Shown here piece by piece: positions 25,465-43,919 of a DNA stretch of 64,000 nt; the first letter of the stretch is position 1; each line of letters begins with the position of its first letter. A model generated the notes under the pieces. That model saw only the letters and a list, made by a program, of their open reading frames with translations. It had not been told where the DNA came from and made no database searches. Origin of the DNA: Paractinoplanes atraurantiacus (GTDB taxonomy: Bacteria > Actinomycetota > Actinomycetes > Mycobacteriales > Micromonosporaceae); contig NZ_OBDY01000006.1 of NCBI RefSeq assembly GCF_900215205.1, positions 62,001 through 126,000 on the forward strand. The letters are read 5' to 3'. The position numbers and the translations under genes are program-made.

Positions 25465-25867
25465 GAGGCGACCCTTCGCGGCATGCTGCCCCCCGTCTGT
25501 CACGCGTGCCCGGATCGTCCCCTCCCACGCGGTGGATGGGGAAGGTTAACCACGGATTTGCGAACAGCGCTACCGCCCCCGGGAGCGCTCCCCGAGGCTC
25601 GGGGCGTGGTTCGTCGAGGGAGAGTACGGAGAACCTCGGGATCGGGTTCAAAGGTGATCGCTCAACTTAAGTCATTCTTAAACACGTATTGAGGACCCCT
25701 TTAGAGCTACCCACAGGTAACAAAGTGGCGAAGGCCACGATGGCTTTTCACGGATCTTGGTGCTAGTGGATGTCACGGTGGATGAGCGACACACACGGAC
25801 CTCCAACTCCCCGGCCGGCGGCCGACGCCCCCGTTTCCAACGGCCGCCACCGCGCTAACTCAGGGCT

Positions 25868-25985: not shown

Positions 25986-26885
25986 GTGAGCGAACTGCTC
26001 GAAGGCACACCCGTGGCGCTCGGCGGCCCCCGCGGCTTCGCCGTCACCCGCCTGCTGCCGGCCAAGGGCCGCCGCATGGTCGGCGCCTGGTGCTTCCTCG
26101 ACGCGTACGGCCCGGTCGACATCAGCGGCACACCGGGGATGCGCGTCGCCCCGCACCCGCACACCGGCCTGCAGACCGTGACCTGGCTCCTGAGCGGTGA
26201 GGTGCTCCACCGCGACATCCTCGGCTCGGTGCAGGAGATCCGCCCCGGCCAGCTCAATCTGATGACCGCCGGCCGCGGCATCGCCCACTCCGAGGAGACG
26301 CCGGCCGAGCACTCGCCGGTCCTGCACGGCGTGCAGCTCTGGGTCGCGCTGCCTCATGCCGTACGGGACATGGCCCCGGCCTTCGCCCATCACGCCGATC
26401 TGCCCGTCGTCGATCTCAACAAAGGCACCGTGACGGTCCTCATGGGCACCTTTGAGGGCGTGACCTCCCCGGCCGCGACGCACACCCCGCTGATCGGGGC
26501 CGAACTCGCCATCACAGGAGAGATCGACCTGCCCCTCGATCCCACCTTCGAATACGCGTTCCTCACCCTCGACGGCGCTCCCACGGTCGACGGCACAACC
26601 CTCAAACCAGGTCCTTTGCTGTACGCCGGTGAGGGCCGCCGGTCCGTCCGCCTGGCCACCTCGTCGCCCTCCCGCCTGCTCCTTCTCGGCGGCGAGCCCT
26701 TCGACGAGCGCCTGGTCATGTGGTGGAACTTCGTCGCCCGCGACCACGACGAGATCGTGCAGATGCGCGCCGACTGGGCCGATCACACGCCCCGCTTCGG
26801 CGAGGTGCACGGCTACGACGGCCCGCCCCTGCCGGCCCCGCCGATGCCGATCACCCGCCTGGTTCCGAGGGGGAGGACCCGGTGA
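25986..26885 (+). CDS. Pirin-family protein
   Basis: A 299-residue bicupin. The N-terminal cupin has the pirin metal site HPHTG (His57, His59), then His101 and Glu103 in GIAHSEE. The C-terminal cupin (about 190-285) ends in FVARDHDEIVQMRADW. Bacterial pirins may show quercetinase activity or act as redox-linked regulators; the in vivo role here is unknown. It starts at GTG 25986. Its 3' end overlaps the convergent Crp-type gene by 35 bases. Confidence 0.92.
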   Translation: MSELLEGTPVALGGPRGFAVTRLLPAKGRRMVGAWCFLDAYGPVDISGTPGMRVAPHPHTGLQTVTWLLSGEVLHRDILGSVQEIRPGQLNLMTAGRGIAHSEETPAEHSPVLHGVQLWVALPHAVRDMAPAFAHHADLPVVDLNKGTVTVLMGTFEGVTSPAATHTPLIGAELAITGEIDLPLDPTFEYAFLTLDGAPTVDGTTLKPGPLLYAGEGRRSVRLATSSPSRLLLLGGEPFDERLVMWWNFVARDHDEIVQMRADWADHTPRFGEVHGYDGPPLPAPPMPITRLVPRGRTR

Positions 26886-27549
26886 AAGCACCGAGCGCCG
26901 CCGGGTCGAGCACGACGATCCGGCGGTAGGCGGTGGCGATCAGCCCGGCCGCCCGCAGCTCTTGAACCGCGTTCTGCACCGTGGCCCGGGAGGCCGCGAT
27001 CATCGCGGCCAGCTCGGGACGGCTCAGCGGCACCGCGATCTCGACGCCGCCGTCCGGCAGCTCGCGCCCGCACGTCTCGGCAATCTCCACCAGCAGCCGG
27101 GCCAGCCGGACCGGCGCCGGGAACGCCGTGAAGTCGCTGCGCCGCCGGTTGGCCCAGGTCAGCTGCCGCGCGATCATCGCCATGACCAGTGTCGACGCCG
27201 CCGGGTGGCGGCGCAGGAAGTCTTCGAAGACGGCCTTGGTGACCACTCCCGCGTGCACCGTGCCGCAGGCGGTCACCGTCGCGTTGCGCGGGCTGCCGGT
27301 GAGCGCGCCGATCTCGCCGACCAGTTCGCCGGGCAGCCGGATGCCGAGCAGCGTCCCGAAGTCGGCGGTGGTCACCTTGACGAAGCCGGTTTCGAGCACC
27401 ACGACGTGTGATCCGAGCGCCCCCTCGCGCAGGATCGGCCGGCCGGTCTCGTAACGGTGCCGCGCACTCAGGCCGAGCAGCTCGTCGGCGGCGACCGGCG
27501 CGAGGCCGCCCAGAAAGGTGCTGGGCGGCCACGCGCCGGTACGCCTCAT
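26851..27549 (-). CDS. Crp/Fnr-family transcriptional regulator
   Basis: A 232-residue regulator. The cyclic-nucleotide-binding-like beta barrel (about 10-125) contains RYETGRPILREGALG and LPGELVGEIGALTGSPRNATV, a good match to the phosphate-binding cassette. A C-helix and winged helix-turn-helix follow (LSRPELAAMIAASRATVQNAVQ). It lacks Cys residues in an Fnr-like cluster, so cAMP or another small ligand is more likely than oxygen sensing. It starts at ATG 27549. It may regulate the convergent pirin or the downstream flavoprotein block; no target site was identified. Confidence 0.88.
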   Translation of the reverse strand: MRRTGAWPPSTFLGGLAPVAADELLGLSARHRYETGRPILREGALGSHVVVLETGFVKVTTADFGTLLGIRLPGELVGEIGALTGSPRNATVTACGTVHAGVVTKAVFEDFLRRHPAASTLVMAMIARQLTWANRRRSDFTAFPAPVRLARLLVEIAETCGRELPDGGVEIAVPLSRPELAAMIAASRATVQNAVQELRAAGLIATAYRRIVVLDPAALGAFTGSSPSEPGG

Positions 27550-27564
27550 GAGTCCATAATGGCC

Positions 27565-28170
27565 TCAGCGCGCGTGCCGGAGAACCTCTGTCAGGCGGCT
27601 CTCGGCCCGGGTGGCGGCCAGCCGTCCCCGGTGCAGCAGGGCCAGATCCTCGACCGCGCAGGCCGGCGGGCGGTAGGAGTTGGCCGCGGCCAGCGCCGGG
27701 TGGAGCCCGGCCCAGGCCAGCAGCGCCTCGCGCAGCGACGGCAGCACCGGCTCCGGCGAGTCGCCCGGGTCGCGGGCGCGCTCGGCGAAATGCTGCCGGT
27801 ACGGCCAGAACGACCACACCTTCGTCTCGTCGATGAGCTGCTCGACCGGGTCGGGCCGCTGGTAGCGCATGGCGATCTCGATCGAGCGCATGCTGCCCTC
27901 GGCGATCAGCTCACCGACCATGGCGTGCCGGGCGCGCACGCCGGTCACCTCGTAGAACGTGCTGCGGCAGCCGCGCGGCCGGGCCGCGCCGACGATCGTC
28001 TTCCAGGTCAGCGGCCGTTCCGGCCGGCCGGCCAGGAGCTCGGCCACGGCCTCGTAGTAGATGATCTTCGTCTGCCAGTGGTTGCGCCGGGGGCAGGGGT
28101 TGTCGGCGAGCCGGGTGTACCAGCCGGCGATCGTGGTGTGCCCCAGGTCGTCGATGATCGTTGTTGACAT
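27565..28170 (-). CDS. TetR-like putative regulator of unknown specificity
   Basis: A 201-residue protein, cytoplasmic. The segment PLTWKTIVGAARPRGCRSTF followed by YEV resembles a TetR-type helix-turn-helix, though it is preceded by more residues than usual (WYTRLADNPCPRRNHWQTKI). The rest is helical (EQLIDETKVWSFWPYRQHF) like a ligand-binding domain. I do not recognise a named family. ATG 28170 is preceded by AGAGGGA. It follows the flavoprotein gene at 28239-29774 on the same strand after 68 bases, so the two may be co-transcribed. Confidence 0.7.
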   Translation of the reverse strand: MSTTIIDDLGHTTIAGWYTRLADNPCPRRNHWQTKIIYYEAVAELLAGRPERPLTWKTIVGAARPRGCRSTFYEVTGVRARHAMVGELIAEGSMRSIEIAMRYQRPDPVEQLIDETKVWSFWPYRQHFAERARDPGDSPEPVLPSLREALLAWAGLHPALAAANSYRPPACAVEDLALLHRGRLAATRAESRLTEVLRHAR

Positions 28171-28238
28171 CGTCCCTCTGTCCCATCCCTGTTCCGCTGG
28201 GAGATGTCGAGCTTCGCCGGAGTCCTCCGGCCCTCGCA

Positions 28239-29774
28239 TCACGCGTTCTCGTATAACTGGTGTCGTACGCCCGTCACTTCGTCGAGCACGCCGTCGCAGT
28301 CGGGCGGCGGCCCGTCGGCGCGCCAGGCCACCTGCTGGTCGGGCCGGATCAGCACGAGCCGCCCGCACCAGGCGGCCGGCATCGGCGCGCCGGCCATCGG
28401 CAGGTGCCGCATCGGCACACCCCGGGCCCGCGCCGCCGTCACCAGCGGCCACCCGCCCTGGTCGTCGGTGAGGTCGACCAGGGTGAGCTGCGGGCCGAGA
28501 CGGTCGAAGAACTGCTCGCCGCCGGCCAGCCGGAAGGCGGGCGGGCGGAACCCGGGAGCGCCGCTCATCCCGGCCGGGCCGGTGCCGGCCGGATCGACCT
28601 GCGGGGCCTCCTGCCGGAGGATCTCGACCAGCACCTCACGGTCGGCGCCCGAGGCGACCAGCCGCTGGAACCGGCTGCGGGTCTGACCGGCCCGGCGGCC
28701 CAGCTCCCGGTCGAGCAGGGCCTGCCGGCGGCGCTCGGCCTCATATCCGGCCAGCAGGTGCTCGCCGGCCCAGCCGTGCACGGCCGCGGCCAGCCGCCAG
28801 CCCAGGTCGACGGCGTCGCCGATGCACGTGTCGACGTCGTTGCCGGGCGGTTCGGCCCGGTGCGCGGCCTGCCCGGCCAGGAAGACCCGGCCCCGGCGGT
28901 AGGACCGCGCGACCGACGGCGTGCCCGCCCGCTGCGCGACCGCGCAGATCTCCGGCGGCTCGCCGGGCAGCCCGAGCCGCTGCGTGAGCAGGCCGGCCGG
29001 GTCGGCCACGGCGGCCTCGTCGCCCTCGGTCAGGGGCAGGTGGGCGACGCAGAGGTCGCCGTCGTGCCCGGTCAGGACGGTGCTGCCGCCGGTGATCACG
29101 GCCGAGGGGTGCGGCCACCGCGCGGCCAGCCCGGCGCTGCGGAAGGCGACGGTCAGATAGGTGGCGGCCGAGCCCAGGTCCTCCATCTCCAGGCCGGCGC
29201 AGCGGCGCACGGTGCTGCCCGCGCCGTCGCACCCGGCCAGGTAGGCCGCCTCGATCACGTGCCGCTTGCCGGACTCGGCGTCGATCACCGTGGCGACCAC
29301 GCACTCCGCCTCGGTGCGCAGGTCGGTGAGGGTCCAGCGGGAGCGCAGGTCGATCAGCGGGTGCTCCAGCGCCCGGCGCAGCCGCCCGGCCAGCCGGGAA
29401 CCGGCGATCAGCAGGTACGGCTCGATCGGCGCGCTGCCGTCGGCCGACGCCGCGTACGAGCCGCGCAGCTCGGTGACCGAGGGCAGCCGCCACACCAGCA
29501 GCGGCTCCTGGTCGACGCCGCGGGCCCAGACCACGTCGACCGGCCCGTCCGGGTCGACACCGGCCGGGCGCAGGTCGCCGGCCAGGCCGAGCCGGCGCAG
29601 CAGCTCCATGTTGCGCCCGTTGACCAGCAGCGGCTCGAGGATCCGGGGCGGGCCGCCGGAGCGTTCGACGACCATGCTGGGCACTCCGTGGTGCGCCAGT
29701 TCCAGTGCGGTGAGCGAGCCGGTGACGCCGGCTCCGGCCACGAGCACCGGCGTCCGGAACGCGGCTGTCGGCAT
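28239..29774 (-). CDS. FAD-dependent aromatic monooxygenase (PheA/TfdB type)
   Basis: A 511-residue group A flavoprotein with a C-terminal thioredoxin-like domain. FAD Rossmann motif GAGVTG is at 14-19, the DG motif GCDGAGSTVR at 181-190. The GD motif region reads GRVFLAGQAAHRAEPPGND (296-314), with Gln302 in place of the near-universal Asp that binds the FAD ribose. Homologues hydroxylate phenols or polyketides using NAD(P)H and oxygen. It neighbours the 3-amino-4-hydroxybenzoate genes and could tailor their product, but the changed GD motif lowers confidence that it is a normal hydroxylase. It is 80 bases downstream of the LAL regulator gene on the same strand. Confidence 0.85.
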   Translation of the reverse strand: MPTAAFRTPVLVAGAGVTGSLTALELAHHGVPSMVVERSGGPPRILEPLLVNGRNMELLRRLGLAGDLRPAGVDPDGPVDVVWARGVDQEPLLVWRLPSVTELRGSYAASADGSAPIEPYLLIAGSRLAGRLRRALEHPLIDLRSRWTLTDLRTEAECVVATVIDAESGKRHVIEAAYLAGCDGAGSTVRRCAGLEMEDLGSAATYLTVAFRSAGLAARWPHPSAVITGGSTVLTGHDGDLCVAHLPLTEGDEAAVADPAGLLTQRLGLPGEPPEICAVAQRAGTPSVARSYRRGRVFLAGQAAHRAEPPGNDVDTCIGDAVDLGWRLAAAVHGWAGEHLLAGYEAERRRQALLDRELGRRAGQTRSRFQRLVASGADREVLVEILRQEAPQVDPAGTGPAGMSGAPGFRPPAFRLAGGEQFFDRLGPQLTLVDLTDDQGGWPLVTAARARGVPMRHLPMAGAPMPAAWCGRLVLIRPDQQVAWRADGPPPDCDGVLDEVTGVRHQLYENA

Positions 29775-29854
29775 CGGTGTCCCCTTGGCGGTGGGGGTGG
29801 TGGGCGGGTTACTCCGCCATCCTCGGCCGCGCGGGTCGTTCGTACATCACGTGT

Positions 29855-32626
29855 TCACGTGGTTCGGGCGCCGCACTCCTGCACGACGAGGGTGGCGAGC
29901 TCGACCCGCCGCCGGATGCCGAGCTTGGCGAAGATGTTGCGCAGGTGCGCGTCCACGGTGTGCCGCGAGATGTAGAGGGTCTCCGCGATCGTGATGTTCG
30001 TGCTGCCCTTGCCGACCTCGAGCGCCACCTTGCGCTCGGCCGGGGTGAGCTGGGGCAGGCAGGTGGCGGCCGGCTCGGGCACGGCCTCGGTGCCGAGCCT
30101 GTCCTCGACCCGGCGGCGGGCCCGGTCGGCGCCGGCCGCGGTCACCAGGGACAGGGCCTCCTCGTAGTGGCCGCGCCCGCGGCCGAGCACGGCCGCGTCC
30201 TCGAGCGCCGCGGCCAGGGCGAGTGGGCGGCCGACCTCCCGGAACCGCTCGGCCGCCGCGGCCAGTCTCCCCGGGTCCCGGGCCAGCACGCCGCCGGCGT
30301 AGGCGGCGGCGGCCGCGGCCGAGCGCGACCCGGGATTGTTCGCGGCCAGCCGCTCGGCCGCCCGCACGGCGGCCCCGGCCTCGGCCGGATGGCCGGTGTC
30401 GCGGGCGATGCGGACCAGCTCGGCCGCCGCCGCCGGATCGTTGGCGAGCAGGGCCGGGCGCTCGGGCAGCGTGCGGTAGAAGTCGCCGAGCAGGGCGAAC
30501 GCGGCCGGGGTGTCGCCGCGGGCGTCCATCAGCAGCGCCTCGGCCCACAGCACGTCCTCAGGCACGGCCGTCACGCCGCCCTCGGCCAGCCGGCGTACGT
30601 GGTCGAGATGCTCCTGCGCCGCCGCCAGGTCACCGCGGAGCACGGCGATCCGCATGAGCATGCCCAGCAGCGGCATGGCCAGCGCGTGCGCGTTGTGCCG
30701 TTCGGCCACCGTGAGGCCCGACTCGGCCTCGACCGCCGCTTCCTCGAGCCGCCCCCGGGCGTACAGCAAAGAGGTCTGGAAGTGATGCCAGAGAGGCTCG
30801 GCCCAGGAGGAGCCGGAGCGGTCGGACTCGCGGCGCCCGGCCCGGATGACCTGCTCGGCCTCGTCGAACTCGTCGAGCACGATCAGCGCCGCGCCGAGCC
30901 AGATGCGCGGATGGCGCTGGGCCGCGTCGCCGCCCGCCTCGTCGGCCAGCTCGGTCGCGGCGCGCGCGTGGGCCAGCGAGTCGCCGAGCCGGCCCTGGGC
31001 GTGGGCGACCAGGCTGCGCCCGGCCAGGCCGAACACCGCGGCCCCGTACTCGCCGCCCCGGCGGCCGAGCCCGTCTGCGCGGGCCCCCGACTCGTCGGCC
31101 TCGGCCAGCCGGCCCAGATAGCAGAGCGCGTGGGCCCGTACGGCGTGAAGCAGGGCTTGCACCGCGAGGGAGATGCCCTCCTGCCGCAACGCCTGATCGC
31201 AGTAGCGCACGGTCATCTCGTTGAGGCCGCCGTGCTTGCAGGCCTCGGCCAGGCCGAGCAGCAGCAGCGCCTCGGTCTCGGCGTCGAGACCGGCGCCGAG
31301 CGCCTCACCGCCCAGCTCGCGCGCCTCCTCGAGGCGGGCGGCGGCGGCGAGCAGGTTGACGGTGTCGGCGATCAGCCCGGGACGGCCGGGGTCGCCGGGA
31401 TTCGCCGCGTCCAGCGCGCGCAGCATGACGTCGGCCGCGGCGCCGGGCGCGACCCGGGCGATCTCGCGCGCCATCGACCGGACCATGTGGACCGCGTCGG
31501 CCGCGCCGGAACGGCCGCTGCGCAGCTGGTGCTCGGCCACCTCCAGGGCCGGCCGGTCGAGCGTCGCCGCCTCGCGGTGCAGCTGCTCGCGCAGCATCCG
31601 GGGCAGGGTGTTGTAGATCGCCTGCCGGACCAGGTCGTGGGCGAAGGCCAGCCCGCCGCTCACGTCGTCGATCAGGAAGTCGGCCATCACCTCGTCGATC
31701 AGCGGGAAGAGCTCGGCCGGCTTGTGCCCGGTGAGCCGGGCCGCCTCGTCGAAGCTGAACGGCCGGGCCAGCACCGACACCGAGCGCAGCAGCCAGCGGG
31801 CCTGCTCGGAGAGGGTGTCGACGTTCTCCCGGACCGAGTCGACGAAGCTGGACGGCAGATCGTCGCCGACCACCGAGCCCACCCCGTCGGCCACCACCAG
31901 CTGACCGGTCACGAGCAGGGCCTTGAGCAGCTGCTCGGTCCGCAGCGGATTGCCCAGGCAGGAGGCGGCCAGCGCCACGACGGTGTTGTCGACCTCGGCG
32001 CCCACCACGTCCACGCTGAGCTCGGCGATGGCTTTCTCATCGAGAAGACCGAGGTGCGTCCGCTGTACGCCGTCCCGCCGCAACCAGCGCATGAGCTGGT
32101 GACCGGGAGTGTCGCCCTCGTCGGGCGACGGCGGCCGGTGCGCGAACAGCCACCGCACCGGCGAGGAGGCGAGGCCCGGGATCAGCTCGCGGACGGCGAG
32201 CGCGCTCAGCTCGTCCATCCACTGCGCGTCGTCGATGACGATCAGCAGTGGCCGCTCACCGGCCGCCTCCTCGAGCGAGGCCCGCAGTCGTTGCAGCGCG
32301 CGGAGCGGGTCGGCCCGCTCCGGTTCCTGCCCGGCCAGCCAGGCGAACGCGGACGCGCCGGGACGGCACTCGCGCAGCGCGCCGGTCAGGGTGACCAGGG
32401 GCGCCGCCTGATCGAGCCGGAACGCCTCGCGGGCGGCGACCGCGATGCCGCGCTCGGCGGCCAGATGGCCGGCGACATGCAGCAGCGCGGACTTGCCGAT
32501 GCCGGGGGCGCCGGTCACCACGTGGCAGCCGCCGGCCCCGGCCGCGGTGTCGTCCAGGACGCGGGTCAGCGACTCGACCTCGGCTTCCCGGCCGACCAGT
32601 CGCCGGATCATGTCGGGGGTCCTCAT
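29855..32626 (-). CDS. LAL-type LuxR transcriptional regulator
   Basis: A 923-residue large ATP-binding LuxR regulator. An N-terminal AAA/NACHT-like ATPase has Walker A GAPGIGKSA (39-47) and Walker B LLIVIDDAQWMDE. A long helical repeat (TPR-like) region follows. The C-terminal LuxR helix-turn-helix has LTPAERKVALEV and ISRHTVDAHLRNIFAKLGI. Such proteins are common pathway-specific activators of actinomycete biosynthetic clusters. It is divergent from the griI-like gene at 32831, so it probably activates that operon from the shared 204-base spacer. ATG 32626 is chosen. Confidence 0.92.
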   Translation of the reverse strand: MRTPDMIRRLVGREAEVESLTRVLDDTAAGAGGCHVVTGAPGIGKSALLHVAGHLAAERGIAVAAREAFRLDQAAPLVTLTGALRECRPGASAFAWLAGQEPERADPLRALQRLRASLEEAAGERPLLIVIDDAQWMDELSALAVRELIPGLASSPVRWLFAHRPPSPDEGDTPGHQLMRWLRRDGVQRTHLGLLDEKAIAELSVDVVGAEVDNTVVALAASCLGNPLRTEQLLKALLVTGQLVVADGVGSVVGDDLPSSFVDSVRENVDTLSEQARWLLRSVSVLARPFSFDEAARLTGHKPAELFPLIDEVMADFLIDDVSGGLAFAHDLVRQAIYNTLPRMLREQLHREAATLDRPALEVAEHQLRSGRSGAADAVHMVRSMAREIARVAPGAAADVMLRALDAANPGDPGRPGLIADTVNLLAAAARLEEARELGGEALGAGLDAETEALLLLGLAEACKHGGLNEMTVRYCDQALRQEGISLAVQALLHAVRAHALCYLGRLAEADESGARADGLGRRGGEYGAAVFGLAGRSLVAHAQGRLGDSLAHARAATELADEAGGDAAQRHPRIWLGAALIVLDEFDEAEQVIRAGRRESDRSGSSWAEPLWHHFQTSLLYARGRLEEAAVEAESGLTVAERHNAHALAMPLLGMLMRIAVLRGDLAAAQEHLDHVRRLAEGGVTAVPEDVLWAEALLMDARGDTPAAFALLGDFYRTLPERPALLANDPAAAAELVRIARDTGHPAEAGAAVRAAERLAANNPGSRSAAAAAAYAGGVLARDPGRLAAAAERFREVGRPLALAAALEDAAVLGRGRGHYEEALSLVTAAGADRARRRVEDRLGTEAVPEPAATCLPQLTPAERKVALEVGKGSTNITIAETLYISRHTVDAHLRNIFAKLGIRRRVELATLVVQECGARTT

Positions 32627-32830
32627 CGCGACTCATACGTATCACGAAGACGGGCACGGCGCATCGGGCGCGGGTACCCGTCGCGGGTCAACTACCCATT
32701 CGGCTAGGTCAATGGCCGCGATGCGAACCGAGCTGCGATTTCCCTGGTCGATCGGGGATGCCACTCGGACGAGCAGTGTCGGCCCACGGCGGGGCGCGGA
32801 TAGCTTTCGGCCGAGGAAAGGGGGTCCGCG
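32627..32830. promoter_or_regulatory. Divergent promoter region: LAL regulator / AHBA operon
   Basis: A 204-base spacer. It contains palindromes ATACGTAT (32635-32642, nine bases before the regulator's ATG) and CGGGTACCCG (32671-32680), plus CCATT-N10-AATGG (32696-32715). Any of these could be operators. A good Shine-Dalgarno (AAAGGGGG) precedes the plus-strand gene. Confidence 0.45.
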
Positions 32831-33622
32831 ATGTACGCGAACGCAACCTTCGGACGGCGGTTGAGGCAGGGGCGCCTCGGCCGCCGCAGCGGCTCCGGCC
32901 TGCTGCTGGTACCGCTCGACCACGCGGTCGGGACCGGGCCGCTGCGCGCCGGCGGCGACCTGGACGCACTGGTCGGCCGGCTGGCCGAGCACGGCGCCGA
33001 CGGCGTGGTGGTCCACAAGGGCGCCGCCCACCGGATCCGCCCGGCCCGGTTCCACGACCTGTCCCTGATCGTGCAGCTGAACGCGAGCACCGGGATGGCG
33101 GCCGACCCGGACGCGAAATATCCGGTGGCCACCGTCGAGGAGGCGCTGCGCCTCGGCGCCGACGCGGTCAGTGTGCACGTCAACGCGGCCTCCCGCACCG
33201 AGGCGGCGCAGATCGCCCACCTGGCCGCCGTGGCCGAGGAGTGCGACCGCTGGTCGCTGCCGCTGCTGGCGATGATGTACGTGCGCGGGCCGGCGGTCCG
33301 TGACGGCCGCGCGCCGGAGCTGGTCGCGCACGCGGTGGCGGTCGCCGCCGAGTTGGGCGCCGACCTGGTCAAGACCGCGCTGCCGGACGACCCGGTGGCG
33401 TCCGCCCGGATCATCGCGGGCGCTGCCGTGCCGGTGCTGGCCGCCGGGGGAGCGCCCGAGCCGGACCCGGACGCGGTGCTGGGCCGGATGGCCGCGGCGA
33501 TGCGGGCGGGCGCGGCCGGGGTGGCGGTGGGCCGGCTGGTCTTCACGGCCGCCGACCCGGCGGCCATGCTGCGCCGGCTGGCCGCCGTCGTGCACGACCG
33601 GACGCCGGCGGTGGCCCGATGA
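32831..33622 (+). CDS. griI: GriI/AroA'-type aldolase (C7 aminosugar-like precursor for 3,4-AHBA)
   Basis: A 263-residue DhnA/class I FBP-aldolase-like enzyme. PLDHAV (28-33, Asp30), MMYVRG (Tyr150) and LVKTALP (Lys181, candidate Schiff-base lysine) match the 2-amino-3,7-dideoxy-heptulosonate synthase family. In grixazone biosynthesis GriI condenses aspartate semialdehyde with dihydroxyacetone phosphate; archaeal homologues feed shikimate instead. The immediate partner gene is a GriH homologue, joined by a four-base ATGA overlap, which is the arrangement of the 3-amino-4-hydroxybenzoate pathway. ATG 32831 follows AAAGGGGG. Confidence 0.88.
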   Translation: MYANATFGRRLRQGRLGRRSGSGLLLVPLDHAVGTGPLRAGGDLDALVGRLAEHGADGVVVHKGAAHRIRPARFHDLSLIVQLNASTGMAADPDAKYPVATVEEALRLGADAVSVHVNAASRTEAAQIAHLAAVAEECDRWSLPLLAMMYVRGPAVRDGRAPELVAHAVAVAAELGADLVKTALPDDPVASARIIAGAAVPVLAAGGAPEPDPDAVLGRMAAAMRAGAAGVAVGRLVFTAADPAAMLRRLAAVVHDRTPAVAR

Positions 33623-34716
33623 CCACACCGGGACGTGAATGCTGGCTGGACCTGCGCGGGGCCGGGCCGTGGCGGCGCGAAGCCGCCGAGGAAGCGGTCC
33701 ACCTGCGGTTCGAGGCGATCGTCGCGGACGATCCGGCCGACCTGGCCGATCTGCCGCCGACCGTCACCCGGGTGCTGGCCGTGGCCGGCGCCGAGCTGCC
33801 CGACGACCTCGGTAACGCGGACCTCGTGCTCGTCGATCCGTCGGTGTCCACCGGCGGCCACCCGGGGGTGCGGTTCGGCCGCCGGGTCGACGTCACCGAC
33901 GCGGCGAGCCTCGACCTGGCCTGCGAGCGGGTCCGGACCGACGAGATCACCGTGCTGCGCTTCCACGACCCCACGCACATCCCGCTCGAGATCGTGCTGG
34001 CCGCGGCCGACGGCTCGCTGGGCCGCATCATCACCGAGGTCGGCGACATCGACGAGGCCTCGGTCCACCTGACCGTGCTCGAGCGCGGCCCCGACGGCGT
34101 GCTGCTGCGGCCGGGCGGGCCGGGCGACGCCACGAAGCTCACCGAGGTGGTGCGGCGCCACTCGCCCGAGATCGACCTGGTCACGCTGACGGTCACCGGC
34201 GTGAAGCACAGCGGCGCCGGGGAGCGGGCCTGCGTGGACACGTGTTCCTACCTCAACCAGGACGAGGGGATCCTGGTCGGCTCCCGCTCGCAGGGGCTGA
34301 TCCTCTGCGTCAGCGAGACGCACCCCCTGCCGTACATGCCGATGCGGCCGTTCCGGGTCAACGCCGGCGCGATCATGTCGTACACGCTGGCCGATCCCGA
34401 GCGCACCCGCTATCTGTGCGAGCTTCAGGCGGGGGCGACGGTCCTGGCCGTACGGGCCGACGGCCGCACCCGCCCGGTGACGGTGGGCCGGGTGAAGATC
34501 GAGACGCGGCCGCTGCTGTCCATCGAGGCGGTGGCACCCACCGGCGAGCGCGTCAACCTGATCGTGCAGGACGACTGGCACGTGCGGGTGCTCGGGCCGG
34601 GCGGCGCGGTGCTCAACTCCACCGAGCTGAAACCGGGCGACGAGGTCCTCGGCTATCTGCCCGGCCGGGAACGGCACGTGGGCTATCCGATCGACGAGCT
34701 GTGCCATGAGCTCTGA
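33619..34716 (+). CDS. griH: GriH-type 3-dehydroquinate synthase II homologue (3,4-AHBA cyclase)
   Basis: A 365-residue DHQ synthase II family member. Landmarks are GVKHSGAGERACVDTCSYL, EGILVGSRSQGL, PMRPFRVNAGA and YTLADPERTRYL, all typical of the family. In actinomycetes GriH converts the C7 product of GriI to 3-amino-4-hydroxybenzoate. An actinomycete makes dehydroquinate by the normal AroB route, so a secondary-metabolic role is preferred. It overlaps griI by four bases and the ligase gene by 11 bases, so the operon is tightly coupled. Confidence 0.9.
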   Translation: MTTPGRECWLDLRGAGPWRREAAEEAVHLRFEAIVADDPADLADLPPTVTRVLAVAGAELPDDLGNADLVLVDPSVSTGGHPGVRFGRRVDVTDAASLDLACERVRTDEITVLRFHDPTHIPLEIVLAAADGSLGRIITEVGDIDEASVHLTVLERGPDGVLLRPGGPGDATKLTEVVRRHSPEIDLVTLTVTGVKHSGAGERACVDTCSYLNQDEGILVGSRSQGLILCVSETHPLPYMPMRPFRVNAGAIMSYTLADPERTRYLCELQAGATVLAVRADGRTRPVTVGRVKIETRPLLSIEAVAPTGERVNLIVQDDWHVRVLGPGGAVLNSTELKPGDEVLGYLPGRERHVGYPIDELCHEL

Positions 34717-35923
34717 CCTGACCAAGATCCAGGACTCGCTGCTGCCGGCCGCGCTGGCGGCGGCGGCGAGATCACCCTTCTACCGCACGCGGCGCGACGG
34801 CGTGCCGGCGAACCGGGCCGAGCTGGCCGGGTATCCGCTGACGACCAAGGCCGACCTGCGCGACGCGTACCCGTTCGGGATGCTCGCGGTGGACCGGTCG
34901 CGGCTGGCGACCTACCACGAGTCGAGCGGCACGACCGGGACGCCGACCGCCTCCTACTACACGAAGGGGGACTGGGCGGACCTGATCGAGCGGTACGCGC
35001 GGGTCCGGGTCGGCATCGAGCCGGCGGACACCTTCATGGTCCGTACGCCCTACGCGCTCATGCTGACCGGGCACGTCGCGCACGCGGCGGCGCTGGCCCG
35101 CGGGGCGACCGTGGTCCCCGCCGACAACCGGTCGCTCGCCACGCCGTACAGCAAAGTCGTGAAGTTGATGCACGACCTGGAAGTGACCCTGACCTGGTCA
35201 CTCCCGACCGACACCCTGTTGTGGGCGGCGGCGGCGTCCCGGGCCGGCCTGCGGGGTTTCCCGGCGCTGCGGGCGATGCTGGTGGCGGGCGAGCCGCTGA
35301 GCCCGGCGCGGCGCGACCGGATCTCGGAGATCTGGAAGGTGCCGGTCGTGCAGGAGTACGGCTCGAGCGAGACCGGTGGCCTGGCCGGCGAATGCCCGCA
35401 CGGGAGGCTTCATCTCTGGGCCGATCGGGCGATCTTCGAGGTGTACGACCCCTCGACCGGCCGTCTCACGCCGGACGGCGCCGGGGAGCTGGTCGTGACG
35501 ATGCTGGTGCGCGAGGCGATGCCGCTGCTGCGCTACCACATCGGGGACCGGGTGCGAGTGTCGTACGGGGACTGCCCGTGCGGTTCGGAGCTGCCGGTCG
35601 TCCGGGTGCTGGGAAGGATGTCCCAGCAGGCGGCGGAGCTGGAGGAGGCGGTGTTCCGGCTGCCGCTCGCGTACGGGGTGATGTTCTGGCGCGCCCGTCG
35701 ATCGTCGCGGGGACTGCACGTGCAGATCGAGGTGCCCGACCGCTATCGCTACGCGGCGGCCCGCGATCTGACCGCCGCCATCGAGAAGGACGCGCTGGTC
35801 GAGGCGGTGCCGCCGGGGACGCTCGTGCCGGTGGCGGCGCTGACCGCGCCCGCGGAGATCATGAAGCCGCGCAGCGTGTTCGCGGCGGGCGAGGACTGGG
35901 ACCGTGCGCTGCGCTACTACTGA
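34706..35923 (+). CDS. PaaK-like adenylating ligase for an aromatic acid
   Basis: A 405-residue member of the phenylacetate-CoA ligase branch of adenylate-forming enzymes. The P-loop-like SSGTTGTPT is at 73-81, EYGSSETGG at 217-225, LRYHIGDRV (Asp281) and a Cys-x-Cys (290, 292) typical of PaaK-like proteins. A candidate catalytic Lys lies in IMKPRSVF near the C-terminus. It should activate a carboxylic acid as an acyl-AMP, then CoA thioester or amide/ester. Its position directly after griH suggests 3-amino-4-hydroxybenzoate or a hydroxylated derivative as substrate. The next gene starts 20 bases before this one ends. Confidence 0.86.
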   Translation: MSSDLTKIQDSLLPAALAAAARSPFYRTRRDGVPANRAELAGYPLTTKADLRDAYPFGMLAVDRSRLATYHESSGTTGTPTASYYTKGDWADLIERYARVRVGIEPADTFMVRTPYALMLTGHVAHAAALARGATVVPADNRSLATPYSKVVKLMHDLEVTLTWSLPTDTLLWAAAASRAGLRGFPALRAMLVAGEPLSPARRDRISEIWKVPVVQEYGSSETGGLAGECPHGRLHLWADRAIFEVYDPSTGRLTPDGAGELVVTMLVREAMPLLRYHIGDRVRVSYGDCPCGSELPVVRVLGRMSQQAAELEEAVFRLPLAYGVMFWRARRSSRGLHVQIEVPDRYRYAAARDLTAAIEKDALVEAVPPGTLVPVAALTAPAEIMKPRSVFAAGEDWDRALRYY

Positions 35924-36902
35924 GACAGCGGTCGTCGGTGCGGGGGTGGGTGGCCTCACGGCCGCCCTCGCCCTGCGACGGGAGGGTTTCTCCCGCGTCA
36001 CGGTGTACGAGCGACAGGCGGAACTTCCTTTCGAGGGGTACGGGATTCAGATCTCACCCAACGCGGCGGCCCTCCTGGACGGACACGTGTTCGCGGCGGC
36101 GGCGCGGCCGCCGTACCGGGAGATCCGCCGCTGGCGGGACGACGCAGTGATCTCCAGGATCGACCTTCAGCGGTACCGAACCCCGTACTACACGATGCGC
36201 CGGGGCGACCTGATCGCCGCGCTGGCTTCGCCCGTCGTCCTGAATGCTCCGGTGCGTTCCGCCGCCGACCTGGACGCCGAGATCGTGATCGGCGCCGACG
36301 GCCTGAACTCGGCCCTGCACGGCGCCATCGCCTCGGATCGGCCGCGGGACAGCGGCTACGTCGCGTACCGGGCGGTCGTGCCCGCCGGCCTCGACCGGGT
36401 GGTGGTGTGGCTGGGCCCCGGCCGCCACCTGGTCGCCTACCCGATCGGCGGAGGCGTCAACGTGGTCGCGGTGGTCCCCGACGACGGCGTAGCCCTGGAA
36501 GACGGCTTCGCCGAGTGGCATCCCGCGCCCCGCCGGCTGATCGCCTTGATGAACGGGTCTCCCTCCCACCTCTTACGGGATCGGGTGCCGTTGCCGTGCT
36601 GGCACGAGGGGAAGGTGGTGCTGATCGGCGATGCGGCGCATCCGATGCTGCCGTTCGCGGCGCAGGGCGCCGTGCAGGCGATCGAGGACGCCGCCGCGCT
36701 GGCTCCTCTCCTGCGTCATCCGGACGCCTTCGCCCGCTTCGAGGCGGCGCGGCGCCCCCGCGTCGAGCGGATCTTCGCGATGTCGCGAGCAGGCCTGCAG
36801 TCGTACCACCTGCCGGACGGTAGTGAACAGCGGCGCCGTGATCGGGAGCTGGCGGCCGCGCCTGCGAACGCCCTCGACTGGCTCTATGGGGTGAACTCCT
36901 AG
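35904..36902 (+). CDS. Salicylate-hydroxylase-like FAD monooxygenase (PtmB3-like candidate)
   Basis: A 332-residue group A flavoprotein. GAGVGG (12-17), ADGLNS (131-136) and GDAAHPMLPFAAQG (242-255) are the three FAD motifs, all intact. The family includes salicylate 1-monooxygenase and PtmB3, which hydroxylates 3-amino-4-hydroxybenzoate in platensimycin biosynthesis. It is somewhat shorter than usual (about 390). The GTG start overlaps the ligase gene by 20 bases. Co-location with GriI/GriH homologues makes hydroxylation, possibly decarboxylative, of the aminohydroxybenzoate the leading hypothesis. Its stop overlaps that of the convergent LuxR gene. Confidence 0.85.
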   Translation: MRCATTETAVVGAGVGGLTAALALRREGFSRVTVYERQAELPFEGYGIQISPNAAALLDGHVFAAAARPPYREIRRWRDDAVISRIDLQRYRTPYYTMRRGDLIAALASPVVLNAPVRSAADLDAEIVIGADGLNSALHGAIASDRPRDSGYVAYRAVVPAGLDRVVVWLGPGRHLVAYPIGGGVNVVAVVPDDGVALEDGFAEWHPAPRRLIALMNGSPSHLLRDRVPLPCWHEGKVVLIGDAAHPMLPFAAQGAVQAIEDAAALAPLLRHPDAFARFEAARRPRVERIFAMSRAGLQSYHLPDGSEQRRRDRELAAAPANALDWLYGVNS

Positions 36903-37996
36903 CCGGCGTCCGCCCGCATCTCCGGGTGTTCTCTCAACCGCAGCAGCGACACCAGCTCCACCCGCGACGCGAGGCCGAACTTCCGGAAGATCTGCCGCAG
37001 GTGATAGTTCACGGTGTGCGGCGACCGCCCGAGCCGGCTGGCGATCTGCTGGTTCGTCAGCGCCAGCCCCACCAGCTCCGCGATCTCCAGCTCCCGTTCG
37101 CTGAGCAGACTCCAGTCGGCTGTACGCGGCGTCGCCCGCGGATGCGGCGCCACGGCCACCCGCGCCCGCGGCCGGTGATGCCCCTGCTCGTGGCGCAGCG
37201 CCGCCACCACCGCGTGCGGCATCGACGCCTCGACCACCGCCCGCACCAGCTCATGGCTGAACGCCAGAGCGTCACCCGCCGGCACGAGCAGCCCCGAGTC
37301 GAGCGCCTCCTCGACGTCCGGCAGAAGTGCCACCACGCTGCCACCGAGCATCTCGCTCAGCCGAGCCGGCGAGACGGGCGACCGCACCGCCGTGGCCGCC
37401 TGCACCAGATGCCGCGCCGACCCCGACAGATTGGCCACCCGATGAGCAAGCCGAGCCCGCGTCCGCTCCGGCAGCCGGCCGGGCAGGCTCTCCATCAGCC
37501 TTTCCTCCTGGAGTCCGTCGATCAGATCGAGGATCGCGCCCGGACGGCCCGCCGCCACCCGGGCCAGGTCGAGCAGGCGGTCACTCGGCGGGCCGCCCAG
37601 CCGGGCCGCGATCAGCCGGCGTACGTCCGCCCTTCCGAGCGGCGTCAGCACCACCCGGTGCACCTCGGCCGGCGTGCGCGCGAGCACCGGCTGCCGCGCC
37701 GTGACCACCAGCACCGGCGCCGACGCGGCCAGCCGTTCCGGGAAGTGCGGGTCGGCCGTGCCCGGCCGCAGCGCCTCCCGGTCGCGCACCACCACGATCC
37801 GCTCCGGTGACGTGGCCACCGCCGCCCCGAGCCGCCGTCCGGCCACCGCGAGCTCCCGCAGCAGACGGCCACATCCGATCTCCGGCGGCCCGTCGAGTAT
37901 CAGCACCGTAGGACGTCCCGGCGCGGCCCGGTGGAGCAGCGCCACGAAGCGCTCCCTCTCACCGTCCCGCCCCACCAGGGGAAGCGACTGATCCAT
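36899..37996 (-). CDS. Short LuxR-family regulator with degenerate P-loop
   Basis: A 365-residue regulator. Residues 1-330 are a shrunken STAND/LAL-type region, starting PLVGRDGERERFVALL. The P-loop reads GPPEIGCGR (36-44), lacking the Lys and Ser/Thr needed for nucleotide binding, and no convincing Walker B is present. The C-terminal LuxR domain is intact (LSERELEIAELVGLALTNQQ; SRLGRSPHTVNYHLRQIF). It closes the putative biosynthetic locus and is convergent with it. ATG 37996 is chosen since it begins at the family start; a longer open frame to 38080 is less likely. Confidence 0.85.
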   Translation of the reverse strand: MDQSLPLVGRDGERERFVALLHRAAPGRPTVLILDGPPEIGCGRLLRELAVAGRRLGAAVATSPERIVVVRDREALRPGTADPHFPERLAASAPVLVVTARQPVLARTPAEVHRVVLTPLGRADVRRLIAARLGGPPSDRLLDLARVAAGRPGAILDLIDGLQEERLMESLPGRLPERTRARLAHRVANLSGSARHLVQAATAVRSPVSPARLSEMLGGSVVALLPDVEEALDSGLLVPAGDALAFSHELVRAVVEASMPHAVVAALRHEQGHHRPRARVAVAPHPRATPRTADWSLLSERELEIAELVGLALTNQQIASRLGRSPHTVNYHLRQIFRKFGLASRVELVSLLRLREHPEMRADAG

Positions 37997-38139
37997 GCCG
38001 TCGATGGTGGGGCCACGAGCTACCGAAAACCCGCTAGAAGTAGCGCGTTCCCTGCAGATCCCGAGTCGGCCTTCCAACACATTTCGCGCTGACTGTTATC
38101 GCCTTGACGCTCGCCCCGCCCCGGGCGGATGGTCGAAAC

Positions 38140-39630: not shown

Positions 39631-39771
39631 ATGAGGAAGCGGATCGAGTCGGCGGTCGAGCGATACGACCAAGACTGGCCGCATCTCACCGACAAGCAGA
39701 AAAAGGCCTACGACGGCGAATTCGTCGGCCAGATGATCGACCACGTTCGCCGACTGTGCGAAGCCCTCTAA
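39631..39771 (+). CDS. Small helical protein, possibly the 3' half of a frameshifted gene
   Basis: Forty-six residues: charged helices (RKRIESAVERYDQDWPHL; TDKQKKAYDGEFVGQMIDHV; RRLCEAL). No family recognised. No clear ribosome site of its own. Its stop overlaps the convergent MocR gene stop. Confidence 0.45.
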   Translation: MRKRIESAVERYDQDWPHLTDKQKKAYDGEFVGQMIDHVRRLCEAL

Positions 39772-41162
39772 ACGGCCATCGCGGGTGGGTAGGAGGCCGG
39801 TCGTGGCTCGTACGTGGACCAGGCCGCGGCCAGGCGCCGTACGGCCTCCGTCAGGTCCTCCGGTGTGGCCAGGAAATGCAGGCGCAGGTGGTCCTGGCTG
39901 CCGCCCGACGGGTCGAGGCCCGGGCCCGGCAGGACGGCGACTCCGTGGCGCAGCGCCTGCTGGGCGAACGAGCGGGCGTCGCCGTGGGGCAGGCGCACCC
40001 ACAAGGTCTGGCCGCCCTGGACGGCGGGGGCGTGCCAGGACGGCAGCGCCCGGGCCAGTTCGGACCGCAGGTGGTCGTGGCGGGTCTTCCTGAGCTGGGC
40101 CGACCGGGCCAGTTCGGGGCCCAGGTGGGGGAGCAGGCGGGCCGCCGCCAGCTGGGCGGGGACGTTGCCGCCCAGGTCGAAGACCGTGCGCATGCGGGCC
40201 AGGCGGGCGATCAGGGCGGCGGGGGCGCGGACCCAGCCGACGCGCAGGCCACCCCAGATCAGTTTGCTCAGGGAGCCGATGGTGATGATCTGGTCGTTGT
40301 GGGCGGCCAGCGGCGGCGGTGGGGTGTGGCCGGGGAAGCCCAGGTCGGCCAGGGCCTCGTCGTCGATCAGGGGGAAGCCGGCCTGGGCGACGCGGTGACG
40401 TTCTCCCGGCGGCAGGACGGCGCCCGTGGGGTTGTGGAACGTGCTGATGACGTACGCCAAAGTGGGGTTGACCTTGGTGAAGCCACGGAGATCGACCGGC
40501 AGTGTTCGGAGGACGGCGGCCTCTTCGCGGAAGGCCTCGATGGCGCCGAAGTAGGTGGGCGCCTGCACGAGCACGCGATCGCCGGGGCGGATCAGGGCCT
40601 TGGCCAGCAACGTCAGCGCCTGCTGGCCGCCGGTGGTCACCATGATCTGGTCGGGGGTGGTGGGGAGACCGCGCTCGTGGTAGCGCTCGGCCAGGGCCCG
40701 GCGCAGCGCCGGATGGCCGGTCGGGTGATAACCGATGTCGCCGGTGATGGCGGCCAGGTCCTCCAGCGACGAGGCGTAGGCCGTCAGCAGCGCCGGCGGG
40801 GGAGCGTCGGGTGCGGCACAGGCCAGCATGAGTACGCCGTCGCGCGGCTCCAGCAGGTGAAGGAACGCGGGCGCCTCGGTGGTCGGGCGCGCGGTGCCCG
40901 AGGGCGGACCGGCGACCCGGGTGCCGCTGCCCTGCCGGCGGACGATGCGGCCCTCGGCGACGAGCAGGTCGTACGCGGCGACGACCGTGCTGCGCCCCAC
41001 GGCCAGGGCCGACGCCAGCGCGCGGTCCGGTGGCAGCAGCGTGCCCGGCGGCAGCTCGCCCTCGTCGATCAGCGTGCGGATGCGGGCGGTCAGCAGCAGG
41101 TAGAGCGCGCCGCGCCCGGAGGCCCAGCGGCCCAGGCGCTCGACGATGCCGATTGGTTCCAT
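39768..41162 (-). CDS. MocR-family (GntR/aminotransferase) transcriptional regulator
   Basis: A 464-residue regulator. The N-terminal winged helix (about 15-82) contains LPPDRALASALAVGRSTVVAAYDLL. The C-terminal aminotransferase-like domain has HNPTG (243-247) and the PLP lysine Lys300 in GSLSKLIWGGLRVGW. MocR proteins sense PLP or amino acids and control PLP-related or adjacent transporter/enzyme genes. It is divergent from an aminotransferase gene, its likely target. ATG 41162 lies inside a candidate operator (41151-41187). Confidence 0.92.
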   Translation of the reverse strand: MEPIGIVERLGRWASGRGALYLLLTARIRTLIDEGELPPGTLLPPDRALASALAVGRSTVVAAYDLLVAEGRIVRRQGSGTRVAGPPSGTARPTTEAPAFLHLLEPRDGVLMLACAAPDAPPPALLTAYASSLEDLAAITGDIGYHPTGHPALRRALAERYHERGLPTTPDQIMVTTGGQQALTLLAKALIRPGDRVLVQAPTYFGAIEAFREEAAVLRTLPVDLRGFTKVNPTLAYVISTFHNPTGAVLPPGERHRVAQAGFPLIDDEALADLGFPGHTPPPPLAAHNDQIITIGSLSKLIWGGLRVGWVRAPAALIARLARMRTVFDLGGNVPAQLAAARLLPHLGPELARSAQLRKTRHDHLRSELARALPSWHAPAVQGGQTLWVRLPHGDARSFAQQALRHGVAVLPGPGLDPSGGSQDHLRLHFLATPEDLTEAVRRLAAAWSTYEPRPASYPPAMAV

Positions 41163-41187
41163 CGACAGACCAATCTAGGGGCATTGG
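41151..41187. promoter_or_regulatory. Candidate MocR operator
   Basis: GATTGGT (41151-41157) and ACCAATC (41169-41175) form a perfect inverted repeat with an 11-base spacer. A further ATTGG at 41183-41187 is a direct repeat of the first at 31-base distance, about three helical turns. It covers the MocR start codon and the divergent promoter. Confidence 0.5.
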
Positions 41188-41227
41188 CCCTGCCCTGGCG
41201 AGACCCTTCTCGCGGACGATCGGTGGC

Positions 41228-42253
41228 ATGAGCTCGATGACCGCCCTGATCGACTGCACTGTCCGCTACGACCTGGCCGAGAGCACCTGCCCGCCGCTGC
41301 GTCTCACCGAGGACGACCTCGCGGGCCTGTCCGGCGTCCCACTCGGCTACGGCACCACCCGCGGCGACCTCACGCTGCGCGAGCTCATCGCCGCCGGCGC
41401 CGGGGTGACCAGTGACGACGTGCTGATCACGGTGGGCGCCATCCACGCCATGTCGCTGCTGCCGGCGAAGCACGTCCTGCTCGTCGGCCCCTGCTTCCCG
41501 CCCGCGCGCACGCTGCCGTCGTCCCGCGGCGCCAGGGTCGACGTCGTCGACGCCCGCTTCGACGAGGGTTACCGCCTGCCGCTGGACCGCATCGAGGCCG
41601 TCCTCGACCCGGCCACCGATCTGATCTCGCTTGCCTCACCCCAAAACCCTTCCGGTGTACGGGTGGAGCCTCGCGACCTGGAAGCTCTGCTCGACCTCGC
41701 CCCCACCGCAACGATCCTGGTCGACGAGACCTACCGCGAGTCCGTGTACGGCGACGCCCCGGTTCCGGCCTCCGCCGCCGCCCTGTCACCGAGGATCGTC
41801 ACGTGCTCGTCGGTCTCCAAGGCCCACGGCGCCCCCGGCCTGCGCCTGGGCTGGCTGACCACCACCGATCCCGGGCTGTACGAGCAGGCCCGCACCGCCA
41901 AGTTCGAGACCACCATCGCCTGCTCCACGATCGACGAGCACCTGGCCACCCGGGTCCTGCGCCGCGGCACCACCAGCGGCCCGTTCCTGCGGTCCGCCCT
42001 CGACGTGGTGCTGCGCTGGGCCGCCGACCACCCCGTCGAGATCGTCACCCCCGACGGCGGCCCGCTCTGCTGCCTGCGCCTGCCCGCCGGCCTGGACATG
42101 GACAAGTTCCACGCCACCCTGAGCGAGGCCGACACCCGGGTGGCCCCCGGCGCCTGGTTCGGCGAGGACGACCACATCGTCCGGGTCGGCTTCGGCCACC
42201 TCAGCCTGCCCGACCTCGCCCAGGCGCTGGCCAACGTGGCAATGGCACTCTGA
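41228..42253 (+). CDS. PLP-dependent aminotransferase, class I/II
   Basis: A 341-residue fold-type I aminotransferase. N140 and PSG in SPQNPSG, Asp166 in LVDETY, Lys198 in CSSVSKAHGAPGLRLGW (Schiff base), and the substrate-carboxylate Arg near IVRVGFG are seen. It resembles small aminotransferases of the capreomycidine synthase/aminotransferase group; the substrate is not clear. Divergent from the MocR gene with a 65-base spacer. ATG 41228 follows GGTGG; the frame is open upstream into the MocR gene. Confidence 0.87.
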   Translation: MSSMTALIDCTVRYDLAESTCPPLRLTEDDLAGLSGVPLGYGTTRGDLTLRELIAAGAGVTSDDVLITVGAIHAMSLLPAKHVLLVGPCFPPARTLPSSRGARVDVVDARFDEGYRLPLDRIEAVLDPATDLISLASPQNPSGVRVEPRDLEALLDLAPTATILVDETYRESVYGDAPVPASAAALSPRIVTCSSVSKAHGAPGLRLGWLTTTDPGLYEQARTAKFETTIACSTIDEHLATRVLRRGTTSGPFLRSALDVVLRWAADHPVEIVTPDGGPLCCLRLPAGLDMDKFHATLSEADTRVAPGAWFGEDDHIVRVGFGHLSLPDLAQALANVAMAL

Positions 42254-43861: not shown

Positions 43862-43919
43862 GACCCCTCCCGCGACCGATGCTAGCGTCGAGCTTGCCGG
43901 GCGGTGCGACAGTGCGTCC

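Follow-up and report, generated by a model that had tools for sequence, protein, structure and literature searches.

3-Amino-4-hydroxybenzoate (3,4-AHBA) is formed by GriI, which joins aspartate semialdehyde and dihydroxyacetone phosphate, and GriH, which aromatizes the resulting compound (available part of PMC10179220). In the closoxazole pathways of Clostridium cavendishii (clx) and Pyxidicoccus fallax (pfx), as far as the accessible sections of the reports describe them, an aldolase/synthase pair provides 3,4-AHBA, and a PaaK-like AMP ligase, ClxA (PMC12519233) or PfxC (PMC12118335), couples two molecules of it. Here, an operon of the same general kind, griI-griH-ligase-flavoprotein, was analyzed in Paractinoplanes atraurantiacus. 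It lies in a 64,000-nucleotide stretch of contig NZ_OBDY01000006.1 (C42:62001-126000 in the 10.9-Mb genome), hereafter the window.

Comparison with described pathways shows several shared components. The clx and pfx pathways differ from the window operon in that they also contain a condensing amidohydrolase and another ligase and lead to a benzoxazole; in addition, the available text names five pfx genes, none of them for a flavoprotein. The bagremycin and ferroverdin clusters of Streptomyces (bag/fev) resemble the window operon in combining GriI/GriH with an ester synthetase (FevW/BagE), FAD-dependent oxygenases, and a LuxR regulator, and their published gene table contains no amidohydrolase. 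However, they add a tyrosine ammonia-lyase, decarboxylases, an o-aminophenol oxidase, a copper chaperone, and a SARP regulator, and their ligases lie on another branch, above a curated family cutoff. The nataxazole, A33853, AJI, and microechmycin pathways have, among solved structures, the ligases closest to that of the window (AjiA1 and NatL2), but they are based on 3-hydroxyanthranilate and include an amidohydrolase, according to the portions of the literature that could be accessed. The grixazone (gri) and 4-hydroxy-3-nitrosobenzamide (nsp) clusters share the GriI/GriH precursor supply and differ by an o-aminophenol oxidase with its copper chaperone, neither of which was seen among the scanned proteins of the window cluster. 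Finally, actinobacterial griI-griH-amidohydrolase-ligase-flavoprotein clusters (for example, loci L041, L057, L106, and L131) have the same core and, in Micromonosporaceae, mostly the same regulators, but keep the amidohydrolase. The open-access literature yielded no product for these clusters, no description or product for the window cluster or its operon-regulator unit, and no Actinoplanes 3,4-AHBA cluster; the sole Phytohabitans match merely expands AHBA in a table legend.

A putative pathway to an open ester or amide

From family membership, conserved residues, and the absence of a gene together with the polarity of that absence on the tree, we infer the substrates, the bond type, the order of steps, the role of the amidohydrolase, the regulation, and the product of this cluster. 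The overall reading, which we hold with moderate confidence, is that 3,4-AHBA is made, coupled by the ligase, kept as an open ester or amide, and oxidized by flavoproteins. The operon would supply 3,4-AHBA through GriI and GriH, and the ligase would adenylate it. A second aryl unit, most probably a further molecule of 3,4-AHBA, would then attack through its phenol oxygen to give an aryl ester, which could rearrange to an amide. No gene in the clusters of the clade described below appears to be left for ring closure, the amidohydrolase that presumably turns the ester into a benzoxazole having been deleted in the clade ancestor, and because of this deletion the open ester or amide would be retained. 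Two flavoproteins would oxidize the monomer or the dimer, perhaps on the ring position para to the phenol, and the LAL protein would probably activate expression at the divergent promoter.

Each gene of the core operon overlaps its successor. The LAL activator gene is divergent; beyond it come the genes for the RebC-like flavoprotein of 511 aa and the TetR-like protein. A short LuxR gene converges on the operon. All of these genes had been named in the initial annotation, and all were found. The features of the region are as follows:

26851..27549, minus strand: Crp/Fnr-type regulator (PF00027 and PF13545), recurrent in the cluster neighborhood
27565..28239, minus strand: predicted TetR-like protein, assigned from the fold of its model, with no family match
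28239..29774, minus strand: FAD monooxygenase, RebC/RdmE-like, 511 aa (PF01494, 6.1e-43; best PDB match RebC, 2e-40)
29855..32626, minus strand: LAL-type transcriptional activator, 923 aa (AAA_16 and GerE)
32760..32780, no strand: degenerate copy of an inverted repeat, candidate operator (9 of 12 pattern positions)
32831..33622, plus strand: GriI-type DhnA aldolase (family matches)
33619..34716, plus strand: GriH-type 3,4-AHBA synthase (sole DHQS-II match in the genome)
34706..35923, plus strand: putative condensing aryl-acid ligase, NatL2/FevW type (sequence relationship and residues)
35904..36902, plus strand: FAD monooxygenase, 332 aa, 3HB6H/4HB1H/TrlE group (structure-database matches and model)
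36899..38080, minus strand: short LuxR regulator, truncated LAL-like (domain matches)

The DhnA-type aldolase adjoins the DHQS-II protein, an arrangement that supports the proposal, made when the genes were first described, that GriI and GriH supply 3,4-AHBA. An o-aminophenol oxidase had been reported missing, and none occurs among the ten scanned cluster-region proteins, nor does a tyrosine ammonia-lyase. Elsewhere in the genome there is one tyrosinase match, on contig C21.

Relationships of the ligase

Related loci were collected from 300 genomes of the same family, searched at E ≤ 1e-60. Ligase matches occurred in 57 of these, counting the window's own genome, and 26 of the 57 belong to the same genus. 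From 59 matched places, 40 regions of 14 to 19 kb were compared. Named loci were added, for which 80 out of 102 relatives were kept; 26 of the 80 proved to be duplicates of loci already in the set, and a distant ligase from the window's own genome (L082) was excluded as falling under the 400-bit threshold. The resulting set comprises 95 distinct ligases, including that of the window.

Among solved structures, the window ligase matches AjiA1 best (1.6e-145) and NatL2 at 1.1e-136. The match to 9s3l, a PDB entry labeled phenylacetate-CoA ligase, is 5.1e-47, and classical PaaK enzymes match at 4.5e-39 and worse; the window ligase is closer to NatL2, ClxA, and FevW than to CoA-forming PaaK. Its residues E217, T121, R142, and K387 align with E235, T135, R156, and K418 of NatL2, and C230, H236, C290, and C292 correspond to the NatL2 zinc ligands C248, H254, C308, and C310. 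The functions assigned to these positions, namely an acid-pocket Glu, an acceptor Arg, a Lys of the partner monomer, and zinc binding, come from the available parts of PMC7204872 and PMC12519233. The zinc ligands are identical in all 95 ligases, as is the Arg at the R142 site; the Lys is present in 94 and the Thr in 89, and the E217 site holds Glu in 87 and Asp in 8. The match to the window ligase also reaches the C terminus and carries K387, indicating a NatL2-type extension; in NatL2, the C-terminal extension to which K418 belongs holds the enzyme in its closed form and keeps CoA from attacking (PMC7204872, in the part available). By sequence, the ligase belongs to the NatL2/ClxA/FevW group, whose members activate and couple without a carrier, in agreement with its initial description as an acid-activating PaaK-like enzyme.

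The same description had left open that the ligase might load a partner elsewhere, that is, convert 3,4-AHBA to a thioester of CoA or of a carrier for use by a polyketide synthase (PKS) or nonribosomal peptide synthetase (NRPS). The PaaK fold is compatible with such a role, and in manumycins 3,4-AHBA is a known starter. However, the window ligase has the NatL2-type C-terminal end with Lys387, the element that in NatL2 prevents CoA attack, according to the accessible description of that enzyme. Moreover, as had already been observed, no PKS or NRPS domain occurs among the 30 window open reading frames (ORFs) scanned, the rest of the genome having been left unsearched for these domains. A CoA-ligase or loading role was rejected on the NatL2-type residues and C terminus and is very improbable. 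Because the NatL2 residues are kept, the cluster would hold its own coupling enzyme and need no partner assembly line. The PaaK-like enzyme in such clusters should thus be regarded as the one that does the coupling, and the absence of a PKS or NRPS is then no longer puzzling.

Several features of the ligase weigh against this assignment or make its substrate less certain. Its closest NCBIfam model is BagE/FevW (3.7e-145), yet it scores 484 bits against a curated cutoff of 800, so that it is related to the named family without being a member. This cutoff is not reached by the ligase matches in any of the 57 matching genomes; four Streptomyces ligases scored as a control (L160 and L162 to L164) reach 864 to 904 bits. 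In addition, T239 and T243 of NatL2 are replaced by Ser221 and Gly225 in the window clade. Finally, ClxA, which binds 3,4-AHBA, lacks the NatL2-type Glu and has Tyr at the E235 site (PMC12519233, available part); because E217 of the window ligase is NatL2-like whereas the 3,4-AHBA-binding ClxA has Tyr, 3,4-AHBA is a putative donor and may not be the true one.

Two residue signatures were considered and rejected. The T239S/T243G pair was tried as a mark of amidohydrolase loss, but it occurs in exactly 12 of the 95 ligases, those of the window clade and of the amidohydrolase-bearing locus L033, and thus marks the clade rather than the gene loss. The Arg at NatL2 position 156 was tried as an indicator that the acceptor carries a carboxylate and does not discriminate, being present in all 95 ligases, those of BagE/FevW included.

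The relationship to BagE/FevW raises the alternative of a bagremycin-like hetero-ester, in which the ligase would join 3,4-AHBA, or a hydroxylated form of it, to a phenol from other metabolism. BagE/FevW, the closest curated family, is credited with linking 3,4-AHBA to p-vinylphenol, its Streptomyces loci (L160 and L162 to L164) have griI and griH without an amidohydrolase match, and aromatic-lyase genes are present in the window genome on two other contigs, C63 and C59. Against this, the BagE/FevW branch is not the closest to the window ligase in the tree (55% identity to L160 and 57% to L162); Thr121, the equivalent of NatL2 T135, is kept in the window ligase but is Ala in all four BagE/FevW ligases; and no ammonia-lyase or decarboxylase was found among the ten scanned cluster-region proteins. 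We regard the hetero-ester as unlikely. A bagremycin-type cluster as such was rejected, given the missing genes, the other ligase branch, and the score below the cutoff. The closest named ligase match is that of Paractinoplanes deccanensis NBRC 13994 (80%); the P. deccanensis ligase is also that of genome G152, which the genome search assigns to the genus of the window.

Loss of the amidohydrolase in one clade

Gene-caller frames were partly wrong from GC bias; gene presence was hence called by hidden Markov models (HMMs) on six-frame translations, at ≥100 bits in the tally of 95 ligases. A griH gene adjoins 80 of these ligases, together with an amidohydrolase gene in 63 cases and without it in 17. 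The 17 are the window, ten congeners, the four Streptomyces BagE/FevW loci, and two loci outside the window clade from which the gene is missing by this tally, L105 (with a 47-bit match) and L154. No amidohydrolase match was found beside the ligase in the window region or in the loci of the ten congeners, and a search of the window region for a remnant returned none (best E value, 4.8). Measured to the start of the ligase HMM match in 24 loci, the gap between griH and the ligase is −1 to 45 nucleotides in the 11 loci without the amidohydrolase, 821 in L033, and 752 to 1,218 in 12 others.

In a tree of five proteins (GriI, GriH, ligase, flavoprotein, and LAL) from 28 loci, the window groups with the ten congeners in a single clade (100/100), to which L033 is sister (100/100). 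In L033, the amidohydrolase gene lies between griH and the ligase gene, and the conserved motifs of the family are intact. The LAL tree agrees with the joint tree (99), and the GriH tree agrees weakly (80). On the joint tree, which appears to be the better guide where single-gene trees conflict, the amidohydrolase was lost once, in the ancestor of the 11-member clade. Ratios of nonsynonymous to synonymous substitution (dN/dS) in four within-clade pairs, from a simple Nei-Gojobori count that is rough at this G+C content, are 0.15 to 0.30 for griI, 0.12 to 0.20 for griH, 0.21 to 0.28 for the ligase, and 0.35 to 0.40 for the flavoprotein, as expected if the operon genes are kept under purifying selection in the clade. 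A single clean loss combined with operon genes that are kept and selected fits a pathway that ends in an open ester or amide, one of the products envisaged when the cluster was first described. The clade also offers a natural experiment on the benzoxazole-closing role of the 250-aa amidohydrolase group, since L033 has kept the gene and its 11 sisters have lost it.

Other observations fit this history, or the role given to the missing enzyme, less well. L033 falls inside the clade in the ligase tree (92) and in that of the 511-aa flavoprotein (95), and dN/dS values against L033 are higher (0.21 to 0.73 over eight genes). A PDB profile search with the 250-aa amidohydrolase of the family listed no NatAM, its weak matches being decarboxylases and amidohydrolases, and the first metal motif of the family is mostly HxR, not HxH. 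From its position and the literature, the family amidohydrolase probably closes the benzoxazole. The motif varies among relatives: the amidohydrolases of L152, L148, L158, and L161 have HxH in place of HxR, and in those of L142 and L139, Arg replaces the motif His itself.

A benzoxazole might still be formed if closure were spontaneous or catalyzed by an enzyme encoded elsewhere, and a search at E ≤ 1 gave seven amidohydrolase matches in the genome outside the window. The two strongest, on C53 and C55, are however partial (39% over 127 aa and 34% over 116 aa), and the C53 gene lies less than 2 kb from an ordinary PaaK gene (AMP-binding_C_2), near a glyoxalase gene. Furthermore, all 11 clade members are without the amidohydrolase in the cluster, and, in the available part of PMC7204872, the NatL2 product is an ester that rearranges to the amide without an amidohydrolase, a course likewise concluded for PfxC in the accessible text of PMC12118335. 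Benzoxazole formation is therefore judged improbable. The loss could also be a step in the decay of the cluster toward a nonfunctional remnant: genes common in relatives are missing along with the amidohydrolase (those of PhzE, isochorismatase, and short-chain dehydrogenase/reductase [SDR] type), and the 332-aa flavoprotein is shortened and fast evolving. Yet the four operon genes are present and closely spaced in all 11 clade members, with dN/dS between 0.12 and 0.40 in the four pairs, and decay is quite improbable. The retained open ester or amide remains our preferred reading.

A widespread family of loci

The initial annotation regarded the gene combination as minimal. The reduced set is shared with the ten congeners, and a GriH-type gene is present in 29 of 67 genomes of the genus. 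The window gene set is thus best described not as an isolated oddity but as a reduced version within a widespread family of benzoxazole type, and the unit of operon plus regulators is common to many species. Among the 63 loci with both griH and the amidohydrolase, 40 carry an anthranilate synthase/PhzE-like gene and 38 an isochorismatase-type gene, and many carry an SDR of the dihydro-dihydroxybenzoate dehydrogenase type; these genes are predicted to be a second supply of aminobenzoate or hydroxybenzoate. Ten ligases of the set adjoin PhzE- and isochorismatase-type genes without griH.

It was also considered that 3-hydroxyanthranilate could be supplied in trans in the window genome. One candidate is a PhzE-like protein (L083, C21:90500-109500) with 51% identity to the cluster-type enzyme of L047 across 358 aa; the other, encoded on C69, is an isochorismatase (50% identity). 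However, the two genes are on separate contigs, that on C69 lies less than 3 kb from another, weaker chorismate-binding match, and L083 has no recognized biosynthetic gene among the three neighbors scanned.

Two loci stand out for their gene content. The 18-kb locus L048 (genome G202) has LAL, flavoprotein, amidohydrolase, and ligase genes but neither griI nor griH; because its genome has no DHQS-II match, either a different aryl acid must serve this cluster or the cluster is incomplete. The larger L106 cluster of Streptomyces toyocaensis adds an aspartate kinase, a multicopper oxidase, and a class-II DAHP synthase, the aspartate kinase likely supplying substrate for GriI.

Flavoproteins and the possible product

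An oxidizing role for the flavoproteins, as first proposed, is supported by matches to PF01494 and to solved FAD monooxygenases. The 332-aa protein, initially described as PtmB3-like (model pLDDT, 89.5), is closest among solved structures to TrlE (tropone 2-monooxygenase), VibMO1 (listed as 4-hydroxybenzoate decarboxylase), GsMNX1 (4-hydroxybenzoate 1-hydroxylase), and 3-hydroxybenzoate 6-hydroxylase (3HB6H). Flavoproteins of the TrlE/3HB6H type often hydroxylate para to a phenol, some with decarboxylation. Since the carboxylate of 3,4-AHBA is para to the phenol, hydroxylation at C1 with loss of CO2 is possible by analogy, and ordinary ring hydroxylation is equally possible. As a point against the preferred reading, the window protein is about 20 residues shorter between the YYTMRRG and GADG motifs than most aligned orthologues.

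In nataxazole biosynthesis, the open ester or amide is an off-pathway shunt. More speculatively, and with some doubt on our part, this lineage, having lost the ring-closing gene once while keeping the ligase and the flavoproteins, may have turned the off-pathway ester or amide of benzoxazole assembly into an end product, oxidized 3,4-AHBA dimers, in 11 or more species of a single genus. In such dimers, one of the rings would possibly be decarboxylated and carry a hydroxyl group at C1; an oxidized 3,4-AHBA dimer chemotype of this kind was not met in the open-access literature.

Regulators and neighboring genes

LAL and LuxR genes mostly accompany the cluster in Micromonosporaceae. The Crp/Fnr-type regulator family is present in 19 of 41 loci of 14 to 22 kb, the window included, a count limited by locus ends, which cut off this gene and those for the TetR-like protein, the 511-aa flavoprotein, and LAL in several loci. 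For the model of the TetR-like protein, VIA-align gave Z values that are middling for a helical protein.

An inverted repeat near CCyACTC...GAGyAGTGGG, a pattern chosen after inspection of the same loci, precedes the griI match by 79 to 100 bp in 17 of 39 loci; six further loci have it at 59 to 63 bp. In L034, L044, and L050, its score was reached by none of 200 shuffles and by no other tile of the locus. The window copy was equaled in 55 of 200 shuffles and is not above chance; the L045 copy is also at chance level, and the best matches in L051, L053 to L056, and several others are no better. The repeat is a candidate operator for LAL or LuxR. A sigma-70 promoter scan found none, and a terminator scan did not exceed shuffles.

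Outside the cluster, pirin (25986-26885), MocR-type regulator (39768-41162), and aminotransferase (41030-42253) genes are common only to the P. deccanensis locus (L053) among the 41 loci compared and for that reason look like chromosomal neighbors and not cluster members. The window also contains a single ORF of 2,209 aa (18874-25503, minus strand), whose product has short repeats and a high content of Pro, Gln, Ala, and Ser, and a gene for an FRG-domain protein (42935-44125, minus strand; PF08867, 1e-08).

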